A program made the position numbers and the translations under genes. Below the pieces are notes generated by a model that had not been told where the DNA came from, did no database searches, and saw only the letters and a list, made by a program, of their open reading frames with translations. Source: an uncultured Akkermansia sp. (GTDB taxonomy: Bacteria > Verrucomicrobiota > Verrucomicrobiia > Verrucomicrobiales > Akkermansiaceae). Taken from it: a stretch of DNA of 64,000 nt. The stretch spans positions 1-64,000 of the forward strand of contig CASFPZ010000005.1 in the NCBI GenBank assembly GCA_949296365.1. The letters are read 5' to 3'. This document shows, in pieces, positions 4,305-43,190 of the stretch. Numbering within the stretch: the stretch's first letter is position 1; each line of letters starts with the position of its first letter.

Positions 4305-4334
4305 ATGAGTTCAATGAAAGTTTATGAACAAATC

Positions 4335-5588: not shown

Positions 5589-5601
5589 AGTTAACGGGTT
5601 G

Positions 5602-6903
5602 TTATTGAATATTGGTATGAGTGCTCGTCAGGAAACGGAGCTGAGACTGGACGGGAATGAGTGTTTCGAGACGCTCAATCAGATTCATTTGGCTTTCATA
5701 GAGCTGTTGCCGTGCTTCAGCGACCTCCGGCAGGGTGGTTTCCCCGATGCTATACAACTTTTCGATCGTTTCTAGGTTGGTGGAGAATTGAACGAGGCGT
5801 TGTTGTTCTTGCTCGCAGTGATTTTTCAGCATTTGCTGTTGTTGAAAGAGCGTGGAAGCCGTGTGGAGGCGGTTACGCCATAGTAAGATCGTATCCTGCC
5901 GGGCTGTGTCACGAGCCCCCTGTGCTTCAGCGATAGCTTGTCGGTTACGATTCCACAGTGGGATGCTGAAACCGATACTTCCTCCAACTTCTTTTTCTCC
6001 GTCTTCACGATTGAATGTGGGGCCTAACTCAATGTCTGGGAACTGTTTTCTGATTTCCATTTTCAACGTTGATTCTGTTACTCCATATTGTGCTAAGCTT
6101 GCGTGAATAATTGGGGAATCAAGAATTTGCGCAGGGGTAGGCTGAAGCAAAGTTACTGGAATAGAAAGAGTTGATGATTTGCTTTCCAAACGGAACAATG
6201 GGACGACATGGGGGTGGAGTCCTAATAGTTTGGCAATTTCCTGGCGGAGGGACTGTTCGTTTTCCTGGGCATCTTGCAAGTCTCGTTTTGCATCGTGAAG
6301 ACGTTGTGCTGCAAGTTGATACGTTGCGAATTCGGCTTCTCCTAATTTAACAAGCTTTTCGATAGAGGCGTTTTCTAGAGCCATTTCATCTAGACGCCGT
6401 TGGATGAGCGATCGACGTATTTGGGCTATGTTAAGTTTGTGCCAGTTTTCTTCAAGTGAAGTCAAGAAGTCCAATTCTGTTTGTCGGAGTGTCCAGTAAT
6501 CGGCTTCTGAATATTGTTCGGCAACTTGACGAGTAAGAGCTGGGATACCAGTTAATGGAATCGTCAATCCTAGGTCACCTGTCATGTTAGGATCTTTGGG
6601 ATTTCCGTGAAGGACTCGAGCTATTTCCCAGGAAATGCTGGGGTCTTCCCACCAACCGGATTGTCGGGCGACTTCTTGACTACTGAGGTGTTTGAGACGA
6701 GCTTTGTTAAGATCGGGATTCATAAGAAGTCCAATTTCTCTAGCTTGTTCTAGGGTGATTGGACGTTGACTAAGTTGAGTGGAATGGTGGAGCCATGTTT
6801 GATTGTCTCGTGGAAGATCGATAGGAGAGCTCTCGTAAGTTGTACATGCTCCTACGAATACAGCCAGGGTACAGGAGAGACATAGTGTGGGTGTCAATTT
6901 CAT
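5602..6903 (-). CDS. TolC/CusC-family outer-membrane efflux lipoprotein
   Basis: 433 residues, first gene of the pump operon. The signal peptide ends in a lipobox V-G-A-C with the lipidated Cys at residue 20, as in CusC- and OprM-type factors. The rest is long amphipathic helices with the internal duplication of the OEP family (two parallel halves; the second contains IGFSIPLWNRNRQAIAEAQG, a conserved OEP signature). It would form the trimeric outer-membrane duct for the adaptor and permease encoded downstream. The 305 bp upstream (6904-7208) carry the terminator of the preceding small gene and presumably the operon promoter, but I see no convincing -10/-35 pair. Confidence 0.87.
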   Translation of the reverse strand: MKLTPTLCLSCTLAVFVGACTTYESSPIDLPRDNQTWLHHSTQLSQRPITLEQAREIGLLMNPDLNKARLKHLSSQEVARQSGWWEDPSISWEIARVLHGNPKDPNMTGDLGLTIPLTGIPALTRQVAEQYSEADYWTLRQTELDFLTSLEENWHKLNIAQIRRSLIQRRLDEMALENASIEKLVKLGEAEFATYQLAAQRLHDAKRDLQDAQENEQSLRQEIAKLLGLHPHVVPLFRLESKSSTLSIPVTLLQPTPAQILDSPIIHASLAQYGVTESTLKMEIRKQFPDIELGPTFNREDGEKEVGGSIGFSIPLWNRNRQAIAEAQGARDTARQDTILLWRNRLHTASTLFQQQQMLKNHCEQEQQRLVQFSTNLETIEKLYSIGETTLPEVAEARQQLYESQMNLIERLETLIPVQSQLRFLTSTHTNIQ

Positions 6904-21603: not shown

Positions 21604-22317
21604 TCATAGTGGTCGAATGAGTTTAATATCCTTGTATCCCAGGATGGCCATGGTTGGTAGGTAGATTAGGGCGATTAAGAGTATTTTGGGCCCAGGGGAT
21701 AGAGCCCATTCCTGGAAATCTTTTTTATTTGATTCTTTTTGCAAACGTACAAGATACGATTTACAATCATTGTTAAATCGGAAGTAGGCTTTTGGGGAAA
21801 CTACGATATCGCTCGTATATTCACCGCTGAGAATAAAAGATTGCAGAATGTCTCCCGTTAATTGGGATATTTCGTTTTTATTTGGTGGAGAAAATGTTGT
21901 AATATCAAATAATTGAGGAAAAGCAGAATCTTGTTTTACCTGTCTATTGTAAACATATTGAGCGTAGCAAGTGAACAATTCCTGTTCATTTTTTGGATTT
22001 TTCGTACTCGATAGATTGACCAATATGGTTTTAAGGCGCCCTGAAGGAGGGAAATCAAGTTTGGACGAAAGAATAGTGGAAGCTCTATCTCCAACAATGT
22101 CTTTTGCAACTGAAGTAGAAACAATAACTGAAGAGACGGCGATCCAGGCAACGAGGGATACCGAGATTGCGCTGCTGTGGTACCAATATTGTTTATTCCA
22201 TAGACTGCACCAAAAAAAATGGATACATGCTATCACAACGAGTCCCAATAACATGTACCACAACTTACTGAAAGGTGCATAATAGATGAGCAAAAAAAAT
22301 AGATCTAGATTGGACAT
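21604..22317 (-). CDS. tubulin cluster gene 7: small membrane protein, paralogue of gene 1
   Basis: 237 residues, unknown family. Two N-terminal helices (about 15-33 and 47-66) separated by FFWCSLWNKQYWYHSS, a soluble middle of roughly 130 residues, and a C-terminal helix (about 208-228) ending GYKDIKLIRPL. The first gene of the cluster (32069-32653) has the same order: two helices around FWGNLWNKGW, a soluble segment, a last helix and AYREIKMIK. The shared LWNK and (Y)-x-(E/D)-I-K-(M/L)-I motifs and topology argue for common origin. It is the last gene, 35 bp after the MotB/ZorB-like gene. Membrane scaffold or adaptor of the system is inference. Confidence 0.7.
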   Translation of the reverse strand: MSNLDLFFLLIYYAPFSKLWYMLLGLVVIACIHFFWCSLWNKQYWYHSSAISVSLVAWIAVSSVIVSTSVAKDIVGDRASTILSSKLDFPPSGRLKTILVNLSSTKNPKNEQELFTCYAQYVYNRQVKQDSAFPQLFDITTFSPPNKNEISQLTGDILQSFILSGEYTSDIVVSPKAYFRFNNDCKSYLVRLQKESNKKDFQEWALSPGPKILLIALIYLPTMAILGYKDIKLIRPL

Positions 22318-22352
22318 GAACCAATGACTTTAATCAGACAATTATACGATAA

Positions 22353-23585
22353 TTATTGACGTTGATGGTTAAAATCTGGAGTACAGCTGAAACGGATGTC
22401 GATGCGCCTGCATCGGATTTTCCAAGAGTCTTCAAATTCTCCCAGTTCTTTGGGTAAAGGAACTCGTGCTCCAAAACCTGCATGAGAAAATAATTGACCA
22501 TATGGACTTAAACGTTCATTTTTGTTCAAGAGGGTCCAAACATAAAGCGCACGCATAGAACTTAATTCCTCGTTCCCATACTTGTAACTTCCTGTAGGTG
22601 AATCGTCAGCGTGGGATTCAATAATAATATTAGCAAGTTCTTGCGTATTAGTATTTTCTTGAGCAATTTCCGCTAATATTTGTCCAATGACATCTAATAG
22701 TTCATAGGGATTAGTGAATGAATTGGGCTCAAAAACATTAAATTCGTTGCTTTGAAAACTGATCGATGAAGCAGGAATTCGTAAAATTCCGTTTTCGCGT
22801 TCGATTGTACATTTGTCTGCTATGCCAAATTGAGTTACCTTTTTTTTAACTTTGTCCATGAAATCACGCCTTTTGTCCTCAATTGTGTCAGGGCTTTTAT
22901 AGGTTGATAAAATACGTTCTAGTTCTGCGATTTTTTCATTAAGACCTTGATTGGAATATTTCAATGACTCGCGTTCTCGTTCTAATTCTGTGATTTTCTC
23001 ATTAAGAGAGGTGAGAGCTTCGTCTTTTCCCCTAAGAAAAGGGAGAAGTTTATTTTTAATTTCCTTCATGGCTAAGGCGTAATTACCTCCATGCTTATCT
23101 AAAGAGTTGAGGTCAAGAGATTTTGATAATACTCTGATGACATCACGATAGTTGTCTAATTCATCAATTGTAGATTTGTCTAATCTTTCAATATTATTTA
23201 GGATCGAGGTCAAAACCGTTTTAAAATCGGCGTTTCCGGATTGTTGTAAAGCGGTTTGATAGGTTGATGAATGTTGAATGATATCTTGTAGTTTTGGAAT
23301 CTCCCAAATCTTTTTCAAATATTGTGCTAAATCGGAATATTTGGGCGACTGCTCTCTGTTAGTTGCATCAACAGAGCATAATCCTAATTCAGGATAATAT
23401 TGACCAATTTCATTTGCCTCCATCACGACTAATTCGACCATTTTTAGGTCTCCGTCGTTTTGCTCCTGATCTCTTTCCCATGTACTGACTGAAAAGAGAG
23501 CCAATGCTATGATGAAGAGCGACAAGAACATATCACTGATGCTTGGCCAGAAATTTTCTTCTTCATGCATTGTATTCAGAGACAT
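22353..23585 (-). CDS. tubulin cluster gene 6: MotB/ZorB-like protein with OmpA domain
   Basis: 410 residues. The N-terminus, NFWPSISDMFLSLFIIALAL (residues 11-30), is a single membrane helix with an Asp at residue 18, in the position of the proton-binding Asp of MotB and ZorB. A helical middle with a coiled coil (about 185-235, LTSLNEKITELERERESL) leads to a C-terminal OmpA-like peptidoglycan-binding domain: IIIESHADDSPTG, EELSSMRALYVWTLL and the closing RCRRIDIRFSC. This is the stator layout: ion-translocating helix, linker, wall anchor. The natural channel partner is the MotA-like gene 5 encoded 78 bp upstream. Function of the whole cluster is unknown. Confidence 0.82.
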   Translation of the reverse strand: MSLNTMHEEENFWPSISDMFLSLFIIALALFSVSTWERDQEQNDGDLKMVELVVMEANEIGQYYPELGLCSVDATNREQSPKYSDLAQYLKKIWEIPKLQDIIQHSSTYQTALQQSGNADFKTVLTSILNNIERLDKSTIDELDNYRDVIRVLSKSLDLNSLDKHGGNYALAMKEIKNKLLPFLRGKDEALTSLNEKITELERERESLKYSNQGLNEKIAELERILSTYKSPDTIEDKRRDFMDKVKKKVTQFGIADKCTIERENGILRIPASSISFQSNEFNVFEPNSFTNPYELLDVIGQILAEIAQENTNTQELANIIIESHADDSPTGSYKYGNEELSSMRALYVWTLLNKNERLSPYGQLFSHAGFGARVPLPKELGEFEDSWKIRCRRIDIRFSCTPDFNHQRQ

Positions 23586-23663
23586 AAGGGGAAACGGAAG
23601 TTAGAGTTGTATAGATAAAACAAACAATACTCAGAACATATATCAACCTAAAATACAGGAAGA

Positions 23664-25199
23664 CTAATCAATGGGGTTATGCTGCTGTTTTGTGTTTGGG
23701 TTAGGAAAAGGGGATTCGGAGATATTGGTTAGTTCGAAGGAGTTATTCTCTTGGTTGGGGGTGTCTTGGCTGGGCAAGGGGTAGGGGTAGGGGGGAATGG
23801 TGTCCTCTGGCATGTCGGGCTGTTGAACGATCTTTGTATGTTCTGTTTCAGTATTTTTTTGATAGAAATCCATGTGATTGGAGAGGTCCTTTATGTCTTG
23901 TTTGATTGAATGACATGTAGAAGTCATTTCATTTTGTAACAGCTGTACATGGTAAGCAATACGGTTATCAATGGTTTTGTGTAAATCTTGTAAGAGACTG
24001 TTTTGTTGAGTATTATTTTCCATAAATTTATTTTGTTGATCCTGAATGTTGGCCAGCAATTGACTGTAGTTGGGCAAGACGTCGACGAGTCCATAAATTT
24101 GAGCAAGGTTTTGAGTTATGGATTGTAGAGAAGCTCCAGTTTGCTTAAATTCATTGAGAACTTGATCTTGTAAATTTTTGTATTGATTAAAATTGGCATT
24201 GAATTGCTCTCTCAATTGCCTGTTGTCGGAATCGATGGTTTCCCAAGAATGAATCAATTGTTCGATTTGTTTTCGCATGAGAGAAACATTTTCTCCCTGT
24301 GAAGAAGCATGGTCCTGAACTGTTTTTACTGTCGGTTGGATTTGTAAAATAACACTGTCAATTTTTTGATTACATGTTTCCATGTATTTAGCGCTTTTAG
24401 AGAATGCATCAGTGGCTGTTCTAAGGCCTTGAGACGATTCATTAAAAACTCCCATTGACTCTTTTAATTCGTTGAGTTGTGCTCCTAAACCATCCAAAAT
24501 AGAATCTAATGGATTGTCCGGTTGAAGTTTGGGAATGATTTGAGTGACTGTGAGGAAATCCAAATCTGCTAAAAAAGAATCAACTTGCCTGATGTAACGA
24601 CCGCGTAATATAATCAATATAACAGTGGAAAAGATAGCAATTAAGCTTGGTTCCAGAGCCGGTTGTAATACATCAATTCGGGTACTTGTCCCCCCTTCGA
24701 TCTGAGTTTTTTCATCCTTCAAGCTAAAGTTCGGATCAAGTTTTGTAATGTTGTCATGAATTCCTACTAATGTTCCGCAGATGCCGGTAATGAGGAGAAT
24801 CGATACAATGATTTTCAACCCAGACGGAGCGGTTTTACTGAGTTCTCGTTGCAATGTTAACTCATGCAAATCGTGTATACGCGGCAAATCTTTTACAGCA
24901 TCTCTTGAGGTATTGTTCCCTTTGATGACAGAGGCAATTAGAGCTTGTAGCCGGTCAAACAAGTGACCCTTCATTATTTCGCCTGTTGTTAGCTGATGGT
25001 CAATATGTCTGGCAAATTGGCGGCCTTTCTCATCACTCATGAGAATTTGTAACAGGGTGTTGTTGGGATCGGCTGGTGATCCATCTGGCGAGAGTTCGAT
25101 AGATTTTTGTTCCCGCTTAATCTGATGTTGGGCCTTGAAAAAACACCATAAGCCGAAAAGAGCAAAAAAAATGATAATTAATTTAATAGAATCGATCAT
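23664..25199 (-). CDS. tubulin cluster gene 5: MotA/TolQ/ExbB-like channel with coiled-coil tail (ZorA-like)
   Basis: 511 residues. An N-terminal helix (about 4-22), a cytoplasmic segment, then a pair of helices: IIVSILLITGICGTLVGIHD (the T-G-x-x-G-T-x-x-G-(I/L) pattern of MotA/ExbB) and LEPSLIAIFSTVILIILRG. After these comes a long tail (about 215-440) of repeated heptads, then a Pro-rich, low-complexity end (PPYPYPLPSQ). ZorA of Zorya has the same order of a MotA-like channel and a long intracellular coiled coil; that comparison is from family knowledge. Its start overlaps the stop of gene 4 (ATGA at 25196-25199), indicating coupled translation. It is a clear paralogue of gene 4. Confidence 0.8.
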   Translation of the reverse strand: MIDSIKLIIIFFALFGLWCFFKAQHQIKREQKSIELSPDGSPADPNNTLLQILMSDEKGRQFARHIDHQLTTGEIMKGHLFDRLQALIASVIKGNNTSRDAVKDLPRIHDLHELTLQRELSKTAPSGLKIIVSILLITGICGTLVGIHDNITKLDPNFSLKDEKTQIEGGTSTRIDVLQPALEPSLIAIFSTVILIILRGRYIRQVDSFLADLDFLTVTQIIPKLQPDNPLDSILDGLGAQLNELKESMGVFNESSQGLRTATDAFSKSAKYMETCNQKIDSVILQIQPTVKTVQDHASSQGENVSLMRKQIEQLIHSWETIDSDNRQLREQFNANFNQYKNLQDQVLNEFKQTGASLQSITQNLAQIYGLVDVLPNYSQLLANIQDQQNKFMENNTQQNSLLQDLHKTIDNRIAYHVQLLQNEMTSTCHSIKQDIKDLSNHMDFYQKNTETEHTKIVQQPDMPEDTIPPYPYPLPSQDTPNQENNSFELTNISESPFPNPNTKQQHNPID

Positions 25200-26449
25200 G
25201 GTAATATGAACAATAAATATAAATAAAATAATACTAAAGAGGTTAAAATGATTAATAAAAAAATGGTATCTTTACCTATGTTAACATATTGTTTATTTTG
25301 TGGGCTTGTTGGGACTGTTGGCGAAAAAGGTAGAGGAACTGGATTTGGCTCAGGTTGCGGAATGAGAGGAATATTAATAATGCTAACGGCAATAAGAGGG
25401 AAAAATTGTAATAAATATTGGACATAGTAATTATATTGGTTTTGTATTTCAATAAAATGAGTGGGGCTGTTAGAATAGTTTTTTATATATGTATAAATAT
25501 GTTTTAATAATAGGGTTTGTTGCAGATGTTGTTCTGAGTATAATGTTTGAGTTTTATTTAAATTGTCTATGAGAGCATTGACTTTAAATAATTGGATTGT
25601 TAAATTTTTGAATGTTTGACATCCTGATTCGATATTATTACGGATTGATGGATCGTCTAACGACTGCAGGGACGAGACGAGGTTTTGATAAACATGATTG
25701 ATATCAGCAAGGCGTTCTTTTAAAGTTGAGAGTTTTGACGGAGGTTTTCTAGAGAAAAAAGGAACTAATTTCTTAATCGTAAATAGATCAAAGTCATTAG
25801 TGAACTTGGACCATTCGCGCTGATACAAGCCTCGGAAGATAAATAAAAGAATTGTTGCTGCGACAGCCCACATACCTGGTCTTAAAGCCTCGGGAAGAGA
25901 GGAAACCAATTGACCAACTTCCTTCCCAAGCGCATGGTGAATTCCCCAGAGAGTGCCAGCAATTCCGACGATAAGCACAGCAGGGGGGATAATAGTTAAA
26001 AACCATGTTGACAGGTATGAATGTTCCTTTTGCTCGGTCAGGTTATGAAGATCGATTAACGGCGGTATTTTAGTAACAGTATTCCGGCGCGGGTCAATAG
26101 AACAGAAAATAATGTAGAGGCGACGAGCCGTGTAATGGGGAGGCTGGCCGATGAATTGCCGAATCAGAGGCGTTTTCTTTCCCTCTCGAGGCGTATTGTT
26201 TTGAGCGTTATTTGTATCCTGACCTTGTAAAATATTCATGATGTCGCTTTCGCTTTGAGGATACTGATTTTTCTGTGATTCAGGGAAAATCCATAACTCA
26301 AATTGCCTGGGTGGGGTAAATCCCTTTTCGTCGTAGTCCAGTTGGCGCAGAAGGTCGTGTTCTCGCCTAACTCGACTGAGTGCAAACAAAAACGCAACAA
26401 ATCCGCAACCAACTAAGACAATGAATAATGTAGACAAAAAAGATTCCAT
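25196..26449 (-). CDS. tubulin cluster gene 4: second MotA/TolQ/ExbB-like channel protein
   Basis: 417 residues. The core matches gene 5: an N-terminal helix, then IPPLIDLHNLTEQKEHS (compare LPRIHDLHELTLQRELS), the helix with IVGIAGTLWGIHHALG and the second helix GMWAVAATILLFIFRGLY. It lacks the long coiled-coil tail and instead has extra hydrophobic segments near residues 335-352 and 395-415, the last forming the C-terminus. Two such paralogues beside two OmpA-domain proteins suggest either a hetero-oligomeric channel or two stator complexes. The coding sequence is visibly A/T-rich, more so than the flanking mutase and gyrase genes. Confidence 0.75.
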   Translation of the reverse strand: MESFLSTLFIVLVGCGFVAFLFALSRVRREHDLLRQLDYDEKGFTPPRQFELWIFPESQKNQYPQSESDIMNILQGQDTNNAQNNTPREGKKTPLIRQFIGQPPHYTARRLYIIFCSIDPRRNTVTKIPPLIDLHNLTEQKEHSYLSTWFLTIIPPAVLIVGIAGTLWGIHHALGKEVGQLVSSLPEALRPGMWAVAATILLFIFRGLYQREWSKFTNDFDLFTIKKLVPFFSRKPPSKLSTLKERLADINHVYQNLVSSLQSLDDPSIRNNIESGCQTFKNLTIQLFKVNALIDNLNKTQTLYSEQHLQQTLLLKHIYTYIKNYSNSPTHFIEIQNQYNYYVQYLLQFFPLIAVSIINIPLIPQPEPNPVPLPFSPTVPTSPQNKQYVNIGKDTIFLLIILTSLVLFYLYLLFILP

Positions 26450-26497
26450 TAGTTCAAAGACTTGGTTCCTAACAAAATGGATCTCGAGTTAAGCAAA

Positions 26498-28852
26498 CTA
26501 ATTAGACGAAGAACTTTCGGGTTCAGCAAACAATTTGGGGAAAATTAGAAACACTTCGACACGTCGGCACCAGGCTAAGTTTTGCTGTTGTTCTGCAGCT
26601 GAGCGAGAGACGTTGATTTCACGGCAGGGCCTAGTCCATGAACAATGTAAAGATAGGTTGATGATGTCGGGATATTTGTCTGGAGTGAAGGTGCTTTGAA
26701 AGAAGGTGGAATAAGCGGACTGGGCGCGATTAGCAGAAAGCTTTTTATTGAATTCGAACGATTCTTTGGTGAACATGATCTTTCCCTGGTAGGTACAGTC
26801 GGCATGGCCGACCATGACGATGGCGAGTGGGCCAGTTTTAGCAACTTTGATGATGCTATTGATGGTTTCTTCCAGGGAATAAACAGATTCGGGATCAACA
26901 TTCATATCTGACAAATTTTCAGAGCTGCCTGTTTGATAATGAATGGGGTAGGGGAGTTTGACTCCATAGACCCATTGATCGGTTGTATCGTAGCCGAAAT
27001 CATTAGTTTTGCGAATGGCAGGCTGGCTGAGTTCTCGAATGAGATCGTGGATAGGCAGATCTTTGTTGTCGAGTGTAGCACGGCGACCTTGAGTATCTAA
27101 TTTCAAATCGAGACGTACTGGCGTGAATCCCTGTGCTTTGACAATGGCTTGAGCTTTGCTGTTTTTATCGGAAGCATAATTCATCAACTTGATCGCGAGT
27201 TCATTACTGGTTGACCGGAAGAAATTGATGCGAAAGGCAAAGGGATATTCTGTTGAGTTGAGTGTTGTATCTGTGGGCAGATAACTCAATTCTTGAGGTA
27301 AATTCTTTTTATAAGAGGCGGGAATTTTTTGGGTATCGATATCGATGCGGGTTCCCATTAGACAATTGGGCAGAGCATTGCGATCCTTGTGATAGACTCC
27401 CAGCAATAATTTACCTGGATGCTCGTTTAACAGATTTGTTAACGAGGTCTGATCCTGAATAGTTACGTCTCCAGCCTGAGGCAATACTTGAAAAATTTCA
27501 GCGGCTTCTATTCGTCCGGGATAGGCGGCTGTAAAGACTTTGGCCGTTTGGCTTAAGTCATTTGAAGAAATGGCGTAGGGCAACTTGCTGTCGGGATTGC
27601 GAAAAAAGATGAGAGCATCGGAAGCGATGCGCACGCGACGACCACGTTCGACTCGAATTGGTTGTTCTGGCAACGAAGCCAACCAGGCTTGTTCCTGTGC
27701 TTGAGACATGACTCGACCCGTGAACAGTAAATCATAGGCATTGCCAGAAAGCGTTTGAAAGGCTTCCGCCCCTGGAACGGTGACGATTTTTATCCGGAGG
27801 ACGTCTTGTTCCTGCAACCCTGCGATACCTGGGGCCGGGATGGTTAATTCAATGCAACCTTCCTGCGGCAAATTGCGTTTGATTTCTCCAGAGAGTCCTA
27901 AACCGTGGTTATGGGTATCTGCAACCCATGCTTCGACAATGGAACCTAACAGGGCATTGGCCAGATCTCCTGTTGTTGCAATTTGTAGATCGGCAATGAA
28001 GGGTTTCGGTTTCCCTTCGTTGGGATCTGGCTGGGGCAGACGAGCCAAATCGGTATTGTAAGGTGGTTGTGAAAGTTGGTCGATGATTGCTAGCGTTTGA
28101 TTCAGTTGTTGAATCGCTGGAGCATTGGGATTGATCTTGTCGTTTGCAATCAAAGCTGCGCGAGCTGTTTGAAGATGGGTTTGGTCGTCAAGAAGAGATT
28201 TTTTCTCCTTTGCCCAAGATTTAAGAAAACGGTTCAAATAAGTATGCGTTGATTTATTAGTTGCAGCGGCTACCTCGTAGCCTTCACCTAGATTGTGGTT
28301 TAATTCTTTTGTAACTTCTTTCCTTTTTTTCTCGATAGCTTGGCAATGGGTATCCATGGTTTTTAAGATGGGGACCAGGCCTATGAGTTCAGGAAGGGGC
28401 TTTTCCCATTGAGCTGTTTGCTGTTGATATTGTTGATGGGCCCGTTCGCTCGTCTTGTTGAGCTCTGCATTGATGGCTTCCAGGCGTTTCAATTTTTGTT
28501 TACTGCTTTCGACGACTGCTTTAGGTTGAAGGGCTCCCTCTACGGATTTGAGATCATTATCGAATCCATCACCTTCTTGCCGGAGTTTTTCCATGTTGCT
28601 GCGCAAGGTGTCTAACTCTTGCTGCAATAAAGAGGGATCGTAGACATGACTCGAATGCAAAGCCTTGTCATTGACTTCTCGTTGTGTAGTCCGGGCTTGT
28701 TTGACAAGACCCACTGCCGTCTTGTGGGTGGCAGCAGCTTGTTGCTCCGCTTTAATAGCGTCTTCATCGGAACTACACATTTTGACGAGACCGAATACGA
28801 TGGCAATTCCTATAATAACTTTGATAATGAGCGATTTATTGGCAGCAGTCAT
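26498..28852 (-). CDS. tubulin cluster gene 3: periplasmic-binding-protein-like domain fused to OmpA domain
   Basis: About 784 residues from the ATG at 28852 (MTAANKSL); a GTG ten codons upstream lies in a hairpin and is less likely. One membrane helix (about residues 5-22) is followed by a coiled-coil stalk to about 280. Next comes a PstS-like type 2 binding fold: ADLQIATTGDLANALLGSI, YDLLFTGRVMSQAQEQAW, RIASDALIFFRNPDSKLPY, LLLGVYHKDRNALPNC, then a YPFAFRINFF strand and AQAIVKAQGF. The C-terminus (about 680-780) is OmpA-like: IVMVGHADCTYQGK, NKKLSANRAQSAYSTFF, WCRRVEVFLIF. PstS-like/OmpA fusions exist in databases. Ligand unknown. It would anchor to peptidoglycan and sense a small molecule or ion. 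Confidence 0.75.
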   Translation of the reverse strand: MTAANKSLIIKVIIGIAIVFGLVKMCSSDEDAIKAEQQAAATHKTAVGLVKQARTTQREVNDKALHSSHVYDPSLLQQELDTLRSNMEKLRQEGDGFDNDLKSVEGALQPKAVVESSKQKLKRLEAINAELNKTSERAHQQYQQQTAQWEKPLPELIGLVPILKTMDTHCQAIEKKRKEVTKELNHNLGEGYEVAAATNKSTHTYLNRFLKSWAKEKKSLLDDQTHLQTARAALIANDKINPNAPAIQQLNQTLAIIDQLSQPPYNTDLARLPQPDPNEGKPKPFIADLQIATTGDLANALLGSIVEAWVADTHNHGLGLSGEIKRNLPQEGCIELTIPAPGIAGLQEQDVLRIKIVTVPGAEAFQTLSGNAYDLLFTGRVMSQAQEQAWLASLPEQPIRVERGRRVRIASDALIFFRNPDSKLPYAISSNDLSQTAKVFTAAYPGRIEAAEIFQVLPQAGDVTIQDQTSLTNLLNEHPGKLLLGVYHKDRNALPNCLMGTRIDIDTQKIPASYKKNLPQELSYLPTDTTLNSTEYPFAFRINFFRSTSNELAIKLMNYASDKNSKAQAIVKAQGFTPVRLDLKLDTQGRRATLDNKDLPIHDLIRELSQPAIRKTNDFGYDTTDQWVYGVKLPYPIHYQTGSSENLSDMNVDPESVYSLEETINSIIKVAKTGPLAIVMVGHADCTYQGKIMFTKESFEFNKKLSANRAQSAYSTFFQSTFTPDKYPDIINLSLHCSWTRPCREINVSRSAAEQQQNLAWCRRVEVFLIFPKLFAEPESSSSN

Positions 28853-28863
28853 AGGCAAGAAAC

Positions 28864-28889
28864 ACGGAGGGCGACAAAGCACCCTCCGT
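28864..28889 (-). terminator. intra-operon hairpin between tubulin gene and gene 3
   Basis: ACGGAGGG (28864-28871) pairs with CCCTCCGT (28882-28889), an 8-bp GC-rich stem. On the minus strand it is followed by GTTTCTT, a weak T run. It sits in the 60 bp between the tubulin stop and the gene 3 start. Partial termination or RNA processing is possible. Confidence 0.45.
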
Positions 28890-28911
28890 AATGAGTTGTG
28901 GTTGAGGTGAA

Positions 28912-31900
28912 TTAGATATTTCTTAGTTCAAGAATATTTTTGAGTTGGTCAAGTAGTTCCTTTTTCTCCTGGTATTGTTGGAAAGACTTGTCGATTTTTT
29001 CTTGATCCTGACCTGCTTGTTCTTCTTTTGTCCATTGATCGGCAAGTGATTGGCATTCCGTTTCAACAGGTTTGTAGATTTCCAATTTTTGTTCGTTGCT
29101 CAGTGAAGAAACGGTCATGTCGATAGCATGGAACAAAGCTTCCTTGTAACTTGGTGTGGGAAATAAAATCATCGAATCAGGGTAATCGGGCGTATATTCG
29201 GGCATGCCAGCGTTTTCTTTTTGCAAGAAAGAGATTGAACGATTCCGTTTCCTGACGACAGGGAAACGACTGCCGTTTTTTGTTACGTAAAAGAGCATGC
29301 GAGCAATGTCGGTGTGAAGTTTCGTTTTTTGGTCTGGATCACCGTTTTTGGTGAGAGGTGGCCGATCCGAAGACTGTAACTCTTCTCCGCCTTGATCTAT
29401 ATTAGCAAAGTAAGCGACAATGTTTCCTTCTTCTCCCTGAACAGCCTTAACGTATTCTTCGTAGATTTTGTCGACGACTGGTGCAAATCGCGCAGGCATC
29501 CAGTATGGCGTGTACAAGATGCGGATTTCTTCAGGTGAAGAGTGATCATAAAATTGAGTACTGCTTTCAACAGTTGATAATCCGCTCGGGATACTTTTCT
29601 TAATCTTGTCTTTAAGCCAATTGAGAAATTCTGCAGGGACATTGGAACTGCCTTTTTCAGGGAATCCAATGGCAAGACCTGTTACTGGGGAAACCTGAGG
29701 TTTTAGTAACCCAGTGCCTCCTTGAATACTGGTACTGCAACCCAGTTTGTTTTCGCTGAGAAAATCAATAATTTCACCTTCAAGATTTTGTTCCCAGTTT
29801 CTATTTTGTTGTCCTGCTTGATTACCTGCAATTTGGTAGAGACGTTCCAGGATGGAACTGACGAGAATGGGGGCTAGTTTATGCTTTGTTTGAGCGTTTT
29901 GATGGAGTTTATCCAAAGTTATGTAAATGACATATTCGATAGAAGCAAAAAGATTGTTGATTTTGTTATCGTCGACGTCGTTTAACGAAGAAATGTTTTT
30001 GAGCCAGATTTCCTGATAAGTTGTCGCCATTTCTTCGGTGTAGGTATTACTATCGTTTTCGATTACTTCCCTTATGTTGTTGAGGTGCTGTTGATCATAA
30101 GCATATTTGGCACCTACACTGTTCCCTTGATTTTTGTTGTAGCTAATTAATTCATCATTTCGTTTATTGTATTCATTCTTTGCCTGATTTTGTCGATTTT
30201 TTAAATTATTAATTAATTTGTCAATTGATCTTGTTCTTAAATTCAATAACTCATTACTATATGTTGTGAAGATATTTCTTTTGACTTGACGAATTTTTTG
30301 ATCAAATTTTTGTGAGATTAGTTTTTTGGCATCTCTAATATGATCGTTGATCATTTCTTCATCTTTGTGAGTTAAAATAATGGTAAGCAATCCTAATTTT
30401 TCCCATTGTTTTTCACGCTTACCCATCTTTTGGGTAAGATCCTGAGTCTGCGTGACATTGTTTTGTTGATCTAATTGGTCGATCGAGTTCTGAAAATCAG
30501 CGATTAGGTTGTCTAATGCTACCTGAGCATGCTTGAGACCCCATACTTTACCTCCGGCGTTCCAAGCAATTTTTTGATCTAAACGCGTTGCAATATTATA
30601 GGCATATGTTTCAGCATCGTTAAACACGGATTTATTACTATCAAAAGAACGAGCTTCAATTTCATTGCAAATGTTGTTACATTCTTGAGTAATACGTAAC
30701 AGAACTTCGGCGTCGCGATCTTCATCTAGAATTCTCTGACGCATTTGTTCAAGCCGGTCAATATATTTTTGTATGGTAGTGCTGATTTCTTGCCATGTGT
30801 TTCCAGTTTGGTAATCATTGGCAGAGGCACTATCCAAGGTGTATAGGAATTTATTCCCTTCATCTTTAACTTCAGTCCCCATTAACCATTTATCGATGAT
30901 AATTTGTTCAATATCGTACCGAAGCAATTCTTGAATTTGTTGTGTTGGAATACACCAGCGGCGAGTACCAAAAGCAGCGAATCGATAACTACGTAATTCT
31001 CGACTATTCCCATCAGTTTCACCTGGGGTTGTTTGAACCAAATCTTCTCCCGAGATGGCTTTCAGGCCATTGGGATCTTTGTAGAGAAAACGGAAGATAA
31101 TAGCATCCATGCAGGCATTGGCCAAGTAATTGACTTGATCAGAGAACTTGCTTACATTGAGCGGAGACATTTCTGACGAGAGGTAGACAGAACTAATTGG
31201 ATTGGACTTCCTGAATTTGGAATCATGGCGATTCCCGAAACGAGTAATTACATAAGGGTGATATCGACCTGTCATTAAGCCATTAAGATCTCGGAGAGCT
31301 GCATATTCGTTTTGGAAAAAAAATCCAGTATTAGCAGTTCCGATAGCTTTGCCTGCAATATATAAATAGAGATTGACGGATAACTTGATGTCTAAGTCGC
31401 TGCTTCCACCAAATAAATCGTCATATACGTCGTTGATTAATGTGACCATGTCGACAATGCTACCACTACCTGTGCCGCCGCCTAGAGTGGCAAAAATATG
31501 AACGCAAAAGTTTTTACCTTTTTGCGCTGCCATTCCTTTTACTTTATCTAATAATTTGTTCTTAATGATTGGAGCATTGAGAGCAAAAAGAAGACGTCCA
31601 TAACGACGTAACTGGCCAGCGCCATCCAATCCACGTAATTCTGTCTCAACCTTGTCGATACTAATGCTCTTCTTTTTAGCGAAATTTGCCTGAATGTTTC
31701 CTAACCATTCAGTAATTTCAGGGCGCTTAGATAACGTATCGATAGATTGACTCCCGGCCCCGCCTTTAAGCTGAATAATATCTTCCATTTCAAGACGGCA
31801 GGATTCTCCTGCAACCGACCATTCAGATGTAGCGTTGAGGATATCGTCGTTAGAATCGATGTAGAGATAGTTAAAATTAGCGCCTTTTTCCTTGATCGAT

Positions 31901-31998
31901 TCAACATCGCTTTTGCGTAGGATCATTGCTCTTTTGATGGCCGCTAGAGAACGTCCCCCAGCGCCACCGAGACCGATAATAAGATGATTTTGTGACAT
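28912..31998 (-). CDS. tubulin cluster gene 2: large tubulin/FtsZ-like GTPase
   Basis: 1028 residues. The N-terminus has the tubulin-superfamily nucleotide site: HLIIGLGGAGGRSLAAIKRA (glycine-rich loop T1), and the signature loop T4 in HIFATLGGGTGSGSIVDMV. This matches the Pfam Tubulin_2 type, a set of large bacterial FtsZ-like proteins distinct from FtsZ. The GTPase-like part covers about residues 1-400. The long C-terminal region contains coiled-coil segments (about 530-680: KRNIFTTYSNELLNLRTRS and Gln/Asn-rich helices) and a further folded part, IRILYTPYWMPARFAPV. Filament formation is inference. It is the only singleton of the cluster; all other genes come in paralogous pairs. Confidence 0.85.
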   Translation of the reverse strand: MSQNHLIIGLGGAGGRSLAAIKRAMILRKSDVESIKEKGANFNYLYIDSNDDILNATSEWSVAGESCRLEMEDIIQLKGGAGSQSIDTLSKRPEITEWLGNIQANFAKKKSISIDKVETELRGLDGAGQLRRYGRLLFALNAPIIKNKLLDKVKGMAAQKGKNFCVHIFATLGGGTGSGSIVDMVTLINDVYDDLFGGSSDLDIKLSVNLYLYIAGKAIGTANTGFFFQNEYAALRDLNGLMTGRYHPYVITRFGNRHDSKFRKSNPISSVYLSSEMSPLNVSKFSDQVNYLANACMDAIIFRFLYKDPNGLKAISGEDLVQTTPGETDGNSRELRSYRFAAFGTRRWCIPTQQIQELLRYDIEQIIIDKWLMGTEVKDEGNKFLYTLDSASANDYQTGNTWQEISTTIQKYIDRLEQMRQRILDEDRDAEVLLRITQECNNICNEIEARSFDSNKSVFNDAETYAYNIATRLDQKIAWNAGGKVWGLKHAQVALDNLIADFQNSIDQLDQQNNVTQTQDLTQKMGKREKQWEKLGLLTIILTHKDEEMINDHIRDAKKLISQKFDQKIRQVKRNIFTTYSNELLNLRTRSIDKLINNLKNRQNQAKNEYNKRNDELISYNKNQGNSVGAKYAYDQQHLNNIREVIENDSNTYTEEMATTYQEIWLKNISSLNDVDDNKINNLFASIEYVIYITLDKLHQNAQTKHKLAPILVSSILERLYQIAGNQAGQQNRNWEQNLEGEIIDFLSENKLGCSTSIQGGTGLLKPQVSPVTGLAIGFPEKGSSNVPAEFLNWLKDKIKKSIPSGLSTVESSTQFYDHSSPEEIRILYTPYWMPARFAPVVDKIYEEYVKAVQGEEGNIVAYFANIDQGGEELQSSDRPPLTKNGDPDQKTKLHTDIARMLFYVTKNGSRFPVVRKRNRSISFLQKENAGMPEYTPDYPDSMILFPTPSYKEALFHAIDMTVSSLSNEQKLEIYKPVETECQSLADQWTKEEQAGQDQEKIDKSFQQYQEKKELLDQLKNILELRNI

Positions 31999-32068
31999 GT
32001 TAACAGAGAAATGTTGTTGTATAGATTGGAATAAGTCGTTGTTCAGACGAAGAAAATTTCCAGATACG

Positions 32069-32653
32069 TTACTTGATCATTTTAATTTCACGATATGCGA
32101 AAAAGGCACTTCCTCCAAATAGCAATAAAAGAGACAAGATGAACAATCCCCACATATTGAAAACGGCGTCTTTATATTCAATAATAATAGTTCGGAGTAA
32201 ATCTGCTGAATATGAACCATCAGGTTCAGAAAGGATCACTCCGTCAGAAATGGAGTAAGCAATGAATTGAGAAATGAGTTTATCAGCACCATTACTTGTT
32301 GGAAAGATAGGAGCGTCATTAGGATTAACAGTTCCTTCTTCAGGCAATGTATTGTATTGACTTACAATATCGGTTGAAACAGCCGTACGAAAAAAATGAC
32401 CACCATAAAGAGTATTGATTGAAGCTAGGCTCCATGAACAAATGGCTGCAAATAAAATAACCCAAATCATCTGAAAGGGAGTTTTTTTAGCACTCCATCC
32501 TTTATTCCATAGATTCCCCCAAAAGATGGTTAATGCAAGAAGGACAATAAAACAGATGATTGCGATAACGCCGGCAGTACCTATTCCGGTTCCTGCCGAG
32601 AATGCGAACGACATCCAGGTCATGACATCAATGTTGGCAATGACAGATAACAT
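32069..32653 (-). CDS. tubulin cluster gene 1: small membrane protein, paralogue of gene 7
   Basis: 194 residues, unknown family. A hydrophobic N-terminus (about 10-48) contains GIGTAGVIAIICFIVLLALT, then FWGNLWNKGWSAKKTP, a second helix (about 61-82), a soluble part of about 80 residues, and a C-terminal helix (about 166-185) that ends FAYREIKMIK. Gene 7 shows the same order and motifs. It is the promoter-proximal gene, 70 bp upstream of the tubulin gene. The ATG at 32653 is the only reasonable start. A role as membrane platform is inference. Confidence 0.7.
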   Translation of the reverse strand: MLSVIANIDVMTWMSFAFSAGTGIGTAGVIAIICFIVLLALTIFWGNLWNKGWSAKKTPFQMIWVILFAAICSWSLASINTLYGGHFFRTAVSTDIVSQYNTLPEEGTVNPNDAPIFPTSNGADKLISQFIAYSISDGVILSEPDGSYSADLLRTIIIEYKDAVFNMWGLFILSLLLLFGGSAFFAYREIKMIK

Positions 32654-32904: not shown

Positions 32905-33055
32905 CGTATTGACAATACGTTTGAATAAATTGCAATATACTGATGATGAGTTAATTAGCAAAAATATGATTCTATCATACAAGCGATAAGTTTGTTTTTA
33001 TAACTCATTGAGAAATTTACCTTTTTATTTCTCTTGTCTACGTATTGTCAATCCG
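32905..33055. repeat. pair of inverted 15-bp near-palindromes in the 759-bp gap upstream of the tubulin cluster
   Basis: CGTATTGACAATACG (32905-32919) is a palindrome around a central base. Its reverse complement recurs with one mismatch as CGTATTGTCAATCCG (33041-33055). The whole gap 32654-33412 has no convincing gene: the largest plus frame, 32774-32989, gives 71 unrecognised residues. The gap is strongly A/T-rich and ends with the gyrA terminator. Confidence 0.55.
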
Positions 33056-33336: not shown

Positions 33337-33376
33337 GGGAAAAACGAACCAGGCAACTTTGACAAGCTACCTGGTT
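33337..33376 (-). terminator. intrinsic terminator of gyrBA
   Basis: AACCAGG (33347-33353) pairs with CCTGGTT (33370-33376) and the stem extends inward with mismatches. On the minus strand it is followed by CGTTTTTCCC (A run 33340-33344). It lies 37 bp beyond the gyrA stop. Confidence 0.8.
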
Positions 33377-38839: not shown

Positions 38840-41800
38840 TTATGAGGCAGACGGGCTCAACGGTTTGTTGTTGTCAGAGTCTTGGGGATTGCTGCTAGGG
38901 ATGTCATGAGACGGTTGTGGTGAGGCCGGGGTTAACACCGGAGAACCTTTGAACCGTTCGCGCATTCTTTGGAACATGCTGTAAAGAGCTGGGATGAGGA
39001 TAATGCCGAAGCAAGTTGCAAAGATCATGCCGTAGAAGGTGGTGATGCCAATATCTTGACGGCTAGCGGCGCCTGCGCCTGAGGCAACGACCATGGGGAA
39101 TACCCCGATAATGAAGGAGATAGCCGTCATTAACACAGCTCGGAAACGTTGGCTAGCGCCGTTGAGAGCAGCTTGTTGGATGGGGACGCCGCGTTCGTGG
39201 TCTTCTTTTGAGAATTCGACCATAAGGATGGCGTTTTTACTGGCTAATCCTACGAGCATGACAAGGCCCAGCTGAGCATAAATACTGAGCGAAGTACCAC
39301 AGATCATGATACCGACGAGGGCTCCTAAGATGGCGACGGAGACTGAGACGATTACAGACAGAGGGGTTGTCCAACTTTCGTATTGCGCCACTAAGAAAAG
39401 ATAGCCGAAAACGAATGCGAGAATCATCAACATGACGATTTGGCCTTCGTTTTGCCGTTCCTGGTAACTCATAGCGGTCCATGCGATAGAGTAGTTGTCG
39501 GGAAGCTGCAAGTTTTCGATTTCGTCCATGACCTCACCACTGCTGACGCCGGGTTTGACCATGCATTGGATTTCTGCGGACATGATTTGGTTGTAACGCT
39601 GGATTTGGCGAGGGCCGGTGATAAATGAGATTGTACCCATGGAACTCAGGGGAACCATTTCTCCTTCGTTGTTTTGGATATAGGTACTCATAATATCATT
39701 GATGTTGGAGCGTTCCTTGTCGTCTGATTGGATTTTGACCTTGAAGGCGTAACCTTCTAGGTTGAAATCGTTGACATAGAGTGATGCCAGTTTCCCCTGG
39801 AGAGTAGAGAAGATGTTATTGACTGGTACATGCATGGTACGCGCTTTTTCTCGGTTAAGATTGAGATAAAGCTGCGGCGTATTAGCTTCGTACGATGAGA
39901 AGGCGTTAGCGACACCCGGGAGGTTATTGATTTGTTCAAGGATTTGTTTGGTATTGCGTTCGAGGTCTTTTGGTGTTTCATCGCCCGAGGCTTGGAGCAT
40001 GAACGAGATGCCACCAGTGGCGCCGAGGCCCATGATGGCCGGTGGCGTGAATACTTTAATGGAAGCAGCCGGGATGTCGACTAAGAGGTCCTGGGCTTGA
40101 CTGCGAATGGAATCAAGTTGGAGTTCGGGCGTAGTACGCAGGCTCCAGTTTTCGAGACGGCCAATGCACATAGCGACGTTTTCGCTATCGCCACCGGTGA
40201 AACTGTGGCCGGTGGAACTGGAAACCATACGAATACCTGGGAGCTCCATCAGAATTTCTTCAGCCTGGCTTCTTGCTTCTTCAGTACGTGAAAGCGCTGC
40301 GCCAGATGGTAATTGAATATCAACAAACAACGTGCCTTTGTCTTCTGAAGGAATGAATGAGGTTGGGATTGATTCAAACAGTTTCCAGTCAGCAATCAAC
40401 ACAGCAAGCAAGATGACAAGGGTTAGCCATATCCGGCGGACTAGGATACCGGCGGCTTTTAGGTAGTGCTTGCGGGACCAATCCAGAAGGACATTGAAAG
40501 GTTTGAAAAGCTTGCTGGATTGGCCAGAAGTTCTCTTTTTTAACAAGAGGACACAGAGAGCAGGGCTGAGGGTCAATGCGTTGACAGCGGACAAGCAGAG
40601 GGCAACACACATTGTTACAGAGAATTGCAGATAGATATTACCGACCATGCCCTCGATGAAGGCGATAGGGATGTAAATGGCAACCGTTACCAGAGTGGTA
40701 GCGATGATTGCGCCAGTAATCTGCTGCATACTCTTTTGGGTGGCTTCTGCCGGGGAGAGCCCTTCTGAATCCATGAGACGGATTGTATTTTCTACGACGA
40801 TGATGCCGTCGTCTACCAAAGAACCAATGACCAGGATGAGGCCGAACATAGTCAACACGTTGATACTGAATCCCAACGGCAACAAAACGGCAAATGTGGC
40901 TAAGAGGGAAACCGGGATAGCGAGAGAGGGAATGAGAGTAGCCCGCCAATCTTGCAAGAAAAGATAGGTAATGCCCACGACGAGGAGAAGAGCTACGATC
41001 AATGTTTCCGCAATTTCATACATCGTAGCCATGATGTACTCAGTGGGATCGTAACTGACATCGTAGGTAATACCTTCAGGGAAATTTTTACTTAGTTCTT
41101 TCAACGTAGCCTGGACACGTTCCATCGTATCCAGAGCATTCGAGTCGTCATTGCGATAGACGGCCATGTTGACAGATGGTTTGCCATCGGTTCGGGAACT
41201 ACCAGTATAACTTTCAGCGCCCAATTCGATTCGTGCGATATCGCGGAGTTTGACAATTTCGCCATTTTCGCTGGTTCGAACGATGATATCGCTGAATTCA
41301 TCAACAGTTTTCAGACGGCCTTTGACATCGACCTTATATTGGACAGCGGTGTTATTGGACTGAGTGCCGACAGAGCCGGCAGCGGCCTGGATATTTTGTT
41401 CTTCGATGGCGGCAGCGACGTCGGCAGGGGTGATATTGAGTGCCGACATGCGGATAGAATCCAGCCAGATACGCATACTATAGTTTTTAGCGCCTCGGAC
41501 AGCTACGTCGGAAATACCGTCGATACGAGCAATGACGTCTTGGACTCGTGTTTTGACGAAGTTGTTAAGCTGGAGATTGTTCATTTTGTCGGGGTCAGCT
41601 CTGAATGAGAACTGGCCTAGGATATCCGAGGTACGCTTGCGGACGAAGACGCCTTGGTTGACGACCTCTGTGGGCAAGTTGTGTTCGACGCGCTTGATGG
41701 CGTTTTGCACATTGACCATGTTGATATCTGAATCTGATCCGCTTTTAAAGGTGATGGAAACGGAGTATTCGCCATTGTTGTTGGAGGTAGAAGAGAAGTA

Positions 41801-42031
41801 GAGGAGATCTTCTAACCCGTTGAGTTCTTGTTCGAGAGGAATGCCGATTGTTTCCATGACCGTTTGTGCGCTAGCGCCTTCGTAAGTGGTACGAATGTTG
41901 ATAGCAGGCGGCGCAATTTCCGGATATTCGGCAATAGGCAAGCGAAACCAGCAGATAGACCCTGCTAGAACCATTAGAATTGCAATGACAATTGCGAATT
42001 TGGGACGATGAATAAAGTGTTGCGAAATCAT
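38840..42031 (-). CDS. AcrB/MexB-type (HAE1) RND multidrug efflux permease
   Basis: 1063 residues. The N-terminus MISQHFIHRPKFAIVIAILM and LPIAEYPEIAPPAINI are characteristic of HAE1 pumps. TM4 has FGLILVIGSLVDDGIIVVEN with the paired Asp residues of the proton relay. The second half shows LAQYESW in FLVAQYESWTTPLSVIVSVS and the LVGLASKNAILMVEFSKE motif. The C-terminal tail is Ser/Pro-rich. It is encoded 13 bp after its adaptor. No outer-membrane factor follows, so it must use one encoded elsewhere (the CusC-like gene in this window is tied to the metal pump). Drug range cannot be inferred. Confidence 0.93.
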   Translation of the reverse strand: MISQHFIHRPKFAIVIAILMVLAGSICWFRLPIAEYPEIAPPAINIRTTYEGASAQTVMETIGIPLEQELNGLEDLLYFSSTSNNNGEYSVSITFKSGSDSDINMVNVQNAIKRVEHNLPTEVVNQGVFVRKRTSDILGQFSFRADPDKMNNLQLNNFVKTRVQDVIARIDGISDVAVRGAKNYSMRIWLDSIRMSALNITPADVAAAIEEQNIQAAAGSVGTQSNNTAVQYKVDVKGRLKTVDEFSDIIVRTSENGEIVKLRDIARIELGAESYTGSSRTDGKPSVNMAVYRNDDSNALDTMERVQATLKELSKNFPEGITYDVSYDPTEYIMATMYEIAETLIVALLLVVGITYLFLQDWRATLIPSLAIPVSLLATFAVLLPLGFSINVLTMFGLILVIGSLVDDGIIVVENTIRLMDSEGLSPAEATQKSMQQITGAIIATTLVTVAIYIPIAFIEGMVGNIYLQFSVTMCVALCLSAVNALTLSPALCVLLLKKRTSGQSSKLFKPFNVLLDWSRKHYLKAAGILVRRIWLTLVILLAVLIADWKLFESIPTSFIPSEDKGTLFVDIQLPSGAALSRTEEARSQAEEILMELPGIRMVSSSTGHSFTGGDSENVAMCIGRLENWSLRTTPELQLDSIRSQAQDLLVDIPAASIKVFTPPAIMGLGATGGISFMLQASGDETPKDLERNTKQILEQINNLPGVANAFSSYEANTPQLYLNLNREKARTMHVPVNNIFSTLQGKLASLYVNDFNLEGYAFKVKIQSDDKERSNINDIMSTYIQNNEGEMVPLSSMGTISFITGPRQIQRYNQIMSAEIQCMVKPGVSSGEVMDEIENLQLPDNYSIAWTAMSYQERQNEGQIVMLMILAFVFGYLFLVAQYESWTTPLSVIVSVSVAILGALVGIMICGTSLSIYAQLGLVMLVGLASKNAILMVEFSKEDHERGVPIQQAALNGASQRFRAVLMTAISFIIGVFPMVVASGAGAASRQDIGITTFYGMIFATCFGIILIPALYSMFQRMRERFKGSPVLTPASPQPSHDIPSSNPQDSDNNKPLSPSAS

Positions 42032-42044
42032 AATGAGAAGACAA

Positions 42045-43190
42045 TCAGTTGGCTTCTACAGGAGAAATAGTTGCGCCAGGGTAGGTCTTGTGTTGTCCGT
42101 CGATGATGACGGTTTCGCCTTCTTTAAGTCCACTACGAATACATTGGCGATTGTCGACGATGTTACCGAGGGTGACCTCTCGTTGTTCTACGACGTTTTT
42201 GTCATTGACTATGTACAGATAACATTTGGTGTCATCGTACATGATGGCCGAGATATTTGTGGAGGGCAGGGATTCAACATTTTTCTTGGAGAGGCGTACT
42301 GTGACGATACTGCCAGGATTGAGAAGTTCGTCTTTGTTATCGAATTTGGCCCAGACGGTAATCGTATCGGTTGTGGGGTTGATTTTATTATCAGTCAATG
42401 CAATGACGCCTTCAGAACGGAAGGGGGTACCATCTGCCAGGATTAAATGGATGACGGCTTCTTTTTGCATCGTATTGGCATCCCCAAACAATGAGAGCAA
42501 ATCGCGCTCACTCATTGGGAATCGCACATAAACTTGCCCAATGTTAGTGACTGTGGCTAACGTGCCGGATTGAGGGGTTACATAGTTGCCGCGCGAGAAT
42601 GTGAGTCGGCCAATTTTACCGGCGATGGGAGAGGTGACTCGAGTGTAGTTGAGATTGTCTTTGGCGATAACGAGTTGAGCCTCCTCTGCTTTTTTTTGGG
42701 CTTCAAGGGTGGCAAGTGTACTGCGGGCGTTTTCGTATGTGTCTTGAGAAACGGAAGCCGTTTTGACCAATTTGCTGTAACGTTCCAGGTTGGATTTGGC
42801 ATAACTGATTTTGGCTTCGGTTTGAGCGATCATGGCCTCGGCATTCATTACGGTGGCTTTGTACTGGGTGTCTTCAATTTCAAATAAGAGTTGCCCTTCT
42901 GAGACGAGATCGCCTTCGTCGAAATGAATGGAAAGAATATTGCCTGAGACTCGGGGCTGGATAGCTACTGTATCGATCGCTTCTACTTGCCCCGTATAAG
43001 GTTTGTTGATGGCATTCTTAATAAGCGTAGCTTTCTCAATTAGAACTGTCGGTGGCCGTTGGTGAGCTGCTTTCTCTTGGTTTGCATTGGCCTGCCATAC
43101 GCAACTAAGACATAAAAACATAAGACAAGACTCTGTCAGACGGCGTTTGACAGACGAATAACGTGGTGTTCCGTTCGAAACTAGTGACAT
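42045..43190 (-). CDS. AcrA/MexA-type periplasmic adaptor
   Basis: 381 residues. A long N-terminal region with a signal-like helix (about residues 19-36, ESCLMFLCLSCVWQANAN) has no lipobox of the usual form. The barrel-sandwich halves are PRVSGNILSIHFDEGDLVSE and YTRVTSPIAGKIGRLTFSRG, separated by a helical hairpin (about 105-165). The beta-barrel domain VYVRFPMSERDLLSLF and the membrane-proximal end complete the HlyD layout. First gene of the pump unit; upstream (43191-43425) is a divergent gap shared with marC. I see no linked TetR or MarR regulator gene. Confidence 0.92.
   Translation of the reverse strand: MSLVSNGTPRYSSVKRRLTESCLMFLCLSCVWQANANQEKAAHQRPPTVLIEKATLIKNAINKPYTGQVEAIDTVAIQPRVSGNILSIHFDEGDLVSEGQLLFEIEDTQYKATVMNAEAMIAQTEAKISYAKSNLERYSKLVKTASVSQDTYENARSTLATLEAQKKAEEAQLVIAKDNLNYTRVTSPIAGKIGRLTFSRGNYVTPQSGTLATVTNIGQVYVRFPMSERDLLSLFGDANTMQKEAVIHLILADGTPFRSEGVIALTDNKINPTTDTITVWAKFDNKDELLNPGSIVTVRLSKKNVESLPSTNISAIMYDDTKCYLYIVNDKNVVEQREVTLGNIVDNRQCIRSGLKEGETVIIDGQHKTYPGATISPVEAN

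Follow-up and report, generated by a model that had tools for sequence, protein, structure and literature searches.

The stretch analyzed here (the window) comprises positions 1 to 64,000 of contig CASFPZ010000005.1 from an uncultured Akkermansia sp. (GenBank assembly GCA_949296365.1). At positions 21604 to 32653 it carries a cluster of seven minus-strand open reading frames (ORFs), which run 5′ to 3′ in the order g7, g6, g5, g4, g3, g2, g1 and are separated by 70, 29, 48, −4 (an ATGA overlap), 78, and 35 bp. A first-pass annotation, made from the sequence without database searches, had described seven genes with gaps of 29 to 78 bp and one ATGA overlap, and every ORF was found where it had been placed. 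The genes are as follows.

32069 to 32653, minus strand: g7, 194-amino-acid (aa) membrane protein with three transmembrane (TM) helices (3TM protein), first gene of the core
28912 to 31998, minus strand: g6, 1,028-aa tubulin/FtsZ-like GTPase (FtsZl1/Tubulin_2)
26498 to 28882, minus strand: g5, 794-aa protein with PstS-like binding domain and OmpA domain
25196 to 26449, minus strand: g4, 417-aa ExbB/ZorA-like subunit
23664 to 25199, minus strand: g3, 511-aa ExbB/ZorA-like subunit
22353 to 23585, minus strand: g2, 410-aa ZorB/MotB-like stator protein
21604 to 22317, minus strand: g1, 237-aa 3TM protein, paralogue of g7

The neighborhood is not a chance one: two phyla share the gene order. A neighborhood search anchored on the tubulin, as the first-pass annotation had proposed, found the core order 3TM protein, tubulin, binding-domain/OmpA protein, ExbB, ZorB in 15 distinct loci, from Akkermansia, other Verrucomicrobiota, and purple sulfur Gammaproteobacteria. 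A single-protein scan of genome contigs gave no relatives and an alignment query was needed; alignment-based scans of sequenced genomes supplied 18 loci, and whole-genome searches contributed further ones. The 15 are the window, L028/L038/L043 (one locus), L029, L030, L041, L044, L045, L046, L047, L048, L050, L051, L052, L053, and L091, the last counted with a weak 3TM call. Outside this set, L054 has four of the five genes called and a longer ORF in the place of the 3TM gene, L042 and L049 are truncated at contig ends, and L058 nearly duplicates L048. Where g5 was matched over nearly its full length in the 289 genomes of the order, the match directly adjoins g6; the hits of this search (288/289) were mostly OmpA-domain matches, so only those covering most of the model were counted, and proteins with an OmpA end elsewhere in the order lack a full g5 match. 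Clusters of the Akkermansia type have two to four channel copies and end with g1; some also have a second ZorB. Because the genes stay together in distant bacteria, they very probably build one envelope machine, in line with the possible new envelope-spanning machine raised in the first-pass annotation.

The tubulin tree points the same way. Motor-associated tubulins form essentially one clade, inside which the motor-less, PP2C-linked pair L055/L057 is nested, and only 1 of 500 shuffles gave clustering as low. The Chromatiaceae copies branch from within the verrucomicrobial ones, a sign of horizontal transfer. The other Tubulin_2 loci (L036, L093, L094, L095, L107, and L055/L057) have no stator and often contain a 3TM protein and a Cys-rich TM protein; the motor is therefore an add-on. 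The plasmid search yielded only a motor-less cousin, in Paraburkholderia. In the motor-less Akkermansia variant (L055, 8176 to 15118; L057, 8182 to 15124), a PP2C-like ORF (judged by looking at the sequence), a 3TM protein, a tubulin, and a 665-aa protein stand in a row. ABC-transporter-like and FHA-like ORFs, likewise judged by eye, occur in L095 (2175 to 15944) and lipoprotein-like ORFs in L093 and L094; all three loci have both the 3TM protein and the Cys-rich TM protein.

The first-pass annotation had identified g6 as a large Tubulin_2-type GTPase with a GGGTGSG loop, and the protein matches Tubulin_2 (PF13809) at 7e-27. The T1 loop (IGLGGxGG), the T4 loop (GGGTGSG), and N230 (in our reading the Asn that contacts guanine, at the beginning of H7) are conserved across 17 relatives, and GGTGSG is invariant in the 17 tubulin sequences. 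A usable AlphaFold2 model of g6 (predicted local distance difference test [pLDDT] score, 77) aligned with CetZ (3zid) over 300 residues at 3.8 Å (Z, 26.2) and with FtsZ and tubulins at Z values of 21 to 23, the aligned span being approximately model residues 2 to 840. The model has the FtsZl1 layout of an N-terminal FtsZ domain, an extended coiled coil, and a C-terminal domain: a helical and coiled-coil insertion of ∼400 residues (about 374 to 770, almost wholly helical, with helix 545 to 621 among its coiled-coil helices) is followed by an alpha/beta C-terminal part. Because residues 374 to 770 are helical and the alignment spans 2 to ∼840, the model suggests that the tubulin fold of g6 is complete, its last strands (814 to 833) coming after the large insertion. 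This predicted two-domain fold was read from aligned ranges and secondary structure rather than from residue-level superposition, and completion of the C-terminal sheet was judged from the aligned range 2 to 840 only. The 2010 paper on FtsZl1 operons (PMC2875224) was unable to match the C-terminal domain of this family to known tubulins. The same host genome (2.67 Mb) has an ordinary FtsZ-family gene elsewhere, and g6 is thus unlikely to be the division protein. Several Akkermansia genomes (L007 to L012 and L016) also encode short tubulin-like proteins of 383 to 405 aa, which are a separate family unlinked to the cluster.

Several lines of evidence indicate that g2 is a ZorB-like protein. It matches the PADLOC ZorB models (ZorB1, 4e-25) and Pfam OmpA (2e-6), the ZorB profile was found in 10 of 12 g2 relatives, and the solved MotB-related chain 8vvn is matched at 5e-11. 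ZorB models score far above flagellar MotB models, the MotB equivalogs falling far under the cutoff; no Pfam MotB_plug match was obtained, and no flagellar genes were seen among the neighbors examined. The sole TM helix has the motif WPSxSDMF with an invariant Asp18, and H325, N338, R345, R393, and R398 are invariant in the C-terminal OmpA domain. By its sequence, then, g2 is ZorB-like, having both a TM Asp and an OmpA-type peptidoglycan-binding domain, as the first-pass annotation had anticipated.

The same annotation called g3 and g4 MotA/ExbB-like, a relationship that is weak in single sequences (Pfam, 0.01 for one and no match for the other) and clear in the family. The family profile matches MotA_ExbB at up to 5e-5, in three of eight members, and its membrane core matches ZorA (8qyy, 1.7e-6) and tail-less ZorA (8qyh, 1.2e-4), ZorA being the nearest solved membrane core. 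g3 has three TM helices and a long cytoplasmic coiled-coil tail; in its pore helices, Thr143 is invariant and Thr192 near-invariant across the family. g4 has a GTL/GIH pore helix and an extra C-terminal TM helix. PADLOC ZorA matches of the ExbB-like subunits fall mainly in the coiled-coil tails, and the best matches of these subunits to chemoreceptors, designed coiled coils, and inclusion proteins were discarded as coiled-coil artifacts; the ExbB/ZorA assignment is based on the membrane core, not the tails. As predicted proteins, g3 and g4 are consistent with ZorA, a MotA/ExbB-like channel with a long cytoplasmic tail. Homology with ZorA5B2 predicts that g2 assembles with g3/g4 into an ion-driven stator that is anchored to the wall and has cytoplasmic tails.

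g5 consists of an N-terminal TM helix, a coiled coil, a PstS-like periplasmic binding domain (about 299 to 590), and a C-terminal OmpA peptidoglycan-binding domain. The fusion of a binding protein with OmpA, already proposed in the first-pass annotation, is borne out by the profile of g5 and its relatives, which hits OmpA-like domains at 5e-10 and a binding protein of the PstS type at 8e-7; the AlphaFold2 model is usable (pLDDT, 73). Both folds, known from PstS-type phosphate-binding proteins and OmpA-domain proteins, are thus combined in g5, but unlike those proteins it is membrane tethered with a coiled coil and adjoins a tubulin. In relatives outside Akkermansia, an N-terminal Cys-rich ribbon precedes the TM helix. 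g7 has a conserved WGxxWNKxW after TM1 and g1 has WCSLWNKQ ... YKDIK; WxxxWNK is common to the two, so what had been described as two small membrane proteins are indeed membrane proteins but are paralogues of one 3TM family.

Taken together, the sequences show a five-gene core that unites an ion-driven stator (ExbB/ZorA and ZorB), a cell-wall-binding, sensor-like protein (binding domain and OmpA), a cytoplasmic tubulin-family GTPase, and 3TM linker proteins. Zorya consists of a ZorA5B2 stator and type-specific effectors, its cytoplasmic output being nuclease/helicase proteins. Defense by Zorya depends on ion flow and the ZorA tail as well as on the ZorB Asp and the residues that bind peptidoglycan (PMC11890865). 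The cluster shares with Zorya a ZorB-like protein with a membrane Asp and OmpA peptidoglycan-binding residues, an ExbB/ZorA-like channel with a long cytoplasmic tail, and other defense genes nearby. Unlike Zorya, it has a tubulin GTPase, a binding-domain/OmpA protein, 3TM proteins, and often several channel paralogues. ZorC/D, ZorE, and ZorF/G had no PADLOC match in the core proteins of the window or L044 or among the flank matches listed. The cluster is not Zorya, since strict membership fails on effectors, and the earlier view that only the ZorA/ZorB-like parts are shared holds. MotAB, ExbBD, and TolQR stators have in common with it the pore helix pattern GxxGTL and a membrane Asp, but the cluster lacks flagellar, Ton, or Tol partners, has coiled-coil tails, and has a B subunit nearer to ZorB.

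Makarova and Koonin (2010; PMC2875224) described FtsZl1 operons with OmpA-family partners in several genomes and proposed a role in membrane remodeling. Those operons likewise encode a tubulin of ∼1,000 aa with an N-terminal GTPase, a coiled coil, and a C-terminal part, and OmpA partners, but the main text of that paper has no mention of MotA, ExbB, or TolQ, and the vWA, P-loop GTPase, and kinase partners it reports are not in the present core (PMC2875224); Pfam gave no vWA or P-loop GTPase match in the seven cluster proteins. vWA-like ORFs, recognized by eye from ILDRSGSM and not by a family search, lie kilobases from the core in L047 (7011 to 7694) and L029 (607 to 1278) and recall the vWA partners of FtsZl1 operons. 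A 2025 stator survey mentions Zorya but not tubulin (PMC12505986). In the open-licence literature, no paper was found that combines tubulin with Zorya, MotA, OmpA, or Akkermansia in such a system, in agreement with the first-pass view that no named system is known to have this gene set. The component families are known; their combination, in which an FtsZl1 tubulin module joins a ZorAB-like stator, has, as far as we found, no description.

Counted by motor-type matches, the system occurs in 11 of 289 genomes from the order (∼4%) and in 6 of 44 sampled in the genus. Within the genus, g6 shares 32 to 36% identity with its closest relatives (lower for the copy in genome G015), compared with 74 to 85% for GyrA. 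Type IV restriction-like genes flank L044, where they touch the core, and L054; a PDC-S37/Hhe gene flanks L047, also touching the core; and other flank matches are HsdM (L053), Cas6 (L052), PDC-S01 (L046), and an AriA/mad-like ATPase (L051). PADLOC flank matches such as DpdF and PbeA were treated as generic helicase matches. This distribution, the fast divergence, the low GC content, and the restriction, CRISPR, and Hhe neighbors resemble those of a defense system. The first-pass annotation had left phage defense, envelope remodeling, and transport as candidate functions and had suggested a look for defense genes near homologues; the repeated restriction, CRISPR, and Hhe links, found at several loci, favor defense among the three.

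Around the window's cluster, gyrA and gyrB lie upstream, separated from g7 by a 759-bp gap that contains two copies of a palindrome: CGTATTGnCAATACG at 32905 to 32919, whose exact sequence occurs once in the whole genome, and a copy with one mismatch 136 bp away at 33041 to 33055. GC content is 40% in the cluster, 51% in gyrAB, and 46% in the remaining window. Two further features are listed below.

33347 to 33376, minus strand: terminator-like hairpin after gyrA, between gyrA and the cluster (pattern match only)
32905 to 33055: two palindromes upstream of g7, candidate operator

An Rfam search of the window gave no match. RND efflux pump operons flank the cluster on both sides (38840 to 43190 and 1149 to 6903), both AcrB-type with HlyD and one additionally with an outer-membrane efflux protein.

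We propose a ZorAB-type sensor-motor with a tubulin scaffold effector in place of the Zorya nuclease/helicase proteins, most likely serving anti-phage defense, a reading to which we give about an even chance. The architecture is well supported: homology and co-conservation place the putative stator, the wall anchors, and the tubulin in one machine, from which we infer its function, that is, trigger, coupling, and output. ZorB (g2) and g5 would hold the complex to peptidoglycan. Ion flow through the stator would start when the wall is damaged or remodeled as a phage enters, or when a ligand occupies the g5 binding domain; the ZorA-like cytoplasmic tails would then turn or change shape and switch the GTP-bound tubulin, perhaps via the 3TM proteins. 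The tubulin is the only recognizable cytoplasmic enzyme; as the output, this coiled-coil-bearing protein may assemble at the membrane and seal the entry site or stop the infected cell. The more specific idea, that a wall-anchored, ion-driven rotary stator directly controls a tubulin-family scaffold and so converts wall damage into antiviral cytoskeletal assembly at the membrane, is offered only tentatively.

Several observations weigh against this proposal. No defense gene was recognized among the examined neighbors of the window's own cluster, and viral contigs and phage records yielded no relative at the search sensitivity used. PADLOC families matched at 1e-8 numbered 168 in 55 flank ORFs, and an equal number of control ORFs gave 4, every one a Cas4 model, but this is a small flank test, with controls from five genomes that carry the system, and overlapping models inflate the counts (one protein, many matches), so that the comparison is suggestive and not a formal test. 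Three copies (the window, L043, and L045) adjoin gyrA, a position that fits vertical retention as well as a hotspot; in an empty-site comparison beside gyrA, the Akkermansia flanks were too divergent to join. The T7 region of tubulin and FtsZ holds the catalytic acid, but no conserved acid was found in the T7-loop zone (244 to 290) in the alignment of g6 relatives, the invariant D319 and E327 lying outside it; polymerization-coupled GTP hydrolysis is therefore doubtful, and canonical hydrolysis-driven filament turnover is unsupported. Finally, none of the effectors known from Zorya is present, so the output step is guesswork.

The alternatives differ in which of these features they explain. 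A Tol/Ton-like force transducer for transport or envelope upkeep, in which g5, driven by the stator, would capture a nutrient or a piece of the wall with its PstS-like domain and the tubulin would organize the complex at the membrane, accounts for the PstS-type fold and the OmpA anchors. It also suits the gyrA-adjacent position in three divergent genomes, the ABC-transporter-like genes seen by eye in the related motor-less operon L095, and the membrane remodeling that Makarova and Koonin proposed for FtsZl1 operons (PMC2875224). We nevertheless consider it unlikely, although a serious contender: upkeep sits poorly with a system found in so few genomes of the order and diverging very fast within one genus, the core has no outer-membrane receptor, TonB/TolA, or TolB gene, and the restriction, CRISPR, and Hhe neighbors would be out of place.

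A further Zorya type in the strict sense, with bona fide ZorA and ZorB and the effector swapped for a tubulin module, appears improbable. The better fit of g2 to ZorB than to flagellar MotB models, the recurrence of the ZorB match in most g2 relatives, and the ZorA-like membrane core all speak for it, but ZorC, D, E, F, and G are missing from the cores examined, the ExbB subunits match ZorA models mostly in coiled-coil regions, and Akkermansia-type clusters have two to four ExbB copies. As for a chance neighborhood of unrelated genes, the first-pass annotation had held that it would be indicated by tubulin-like genes occurring without the channel and OmpA genes, with these not co-conserved. 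Motor-less Tubulin_2 genes do exist (L036, L055, L093, L094, and L107), mostly in other lineages, but the motor-bearing lineage is co-conserved; the identical order in 15 loci of two phyla, the co-occurrence, and the clustering of motor-associated tubulins on the tree rule this explanation out for practical purposes.

If the proposed sensor-motor is real, it would join two families known only apart, Zorya-type motors and FtsZl1 tubulins, and we know of no test of the membrane-remodeling prediction made for the latter in 2010. A defined, transferable five-gene core is available in a named strain, Thiocapsa imhoffii DSM 21303, which lets motor control of a tubulin be probed. More broadly, the findings suggest that FtsZl1 systems are modular, with a tubulin core and exchangeable outputs.

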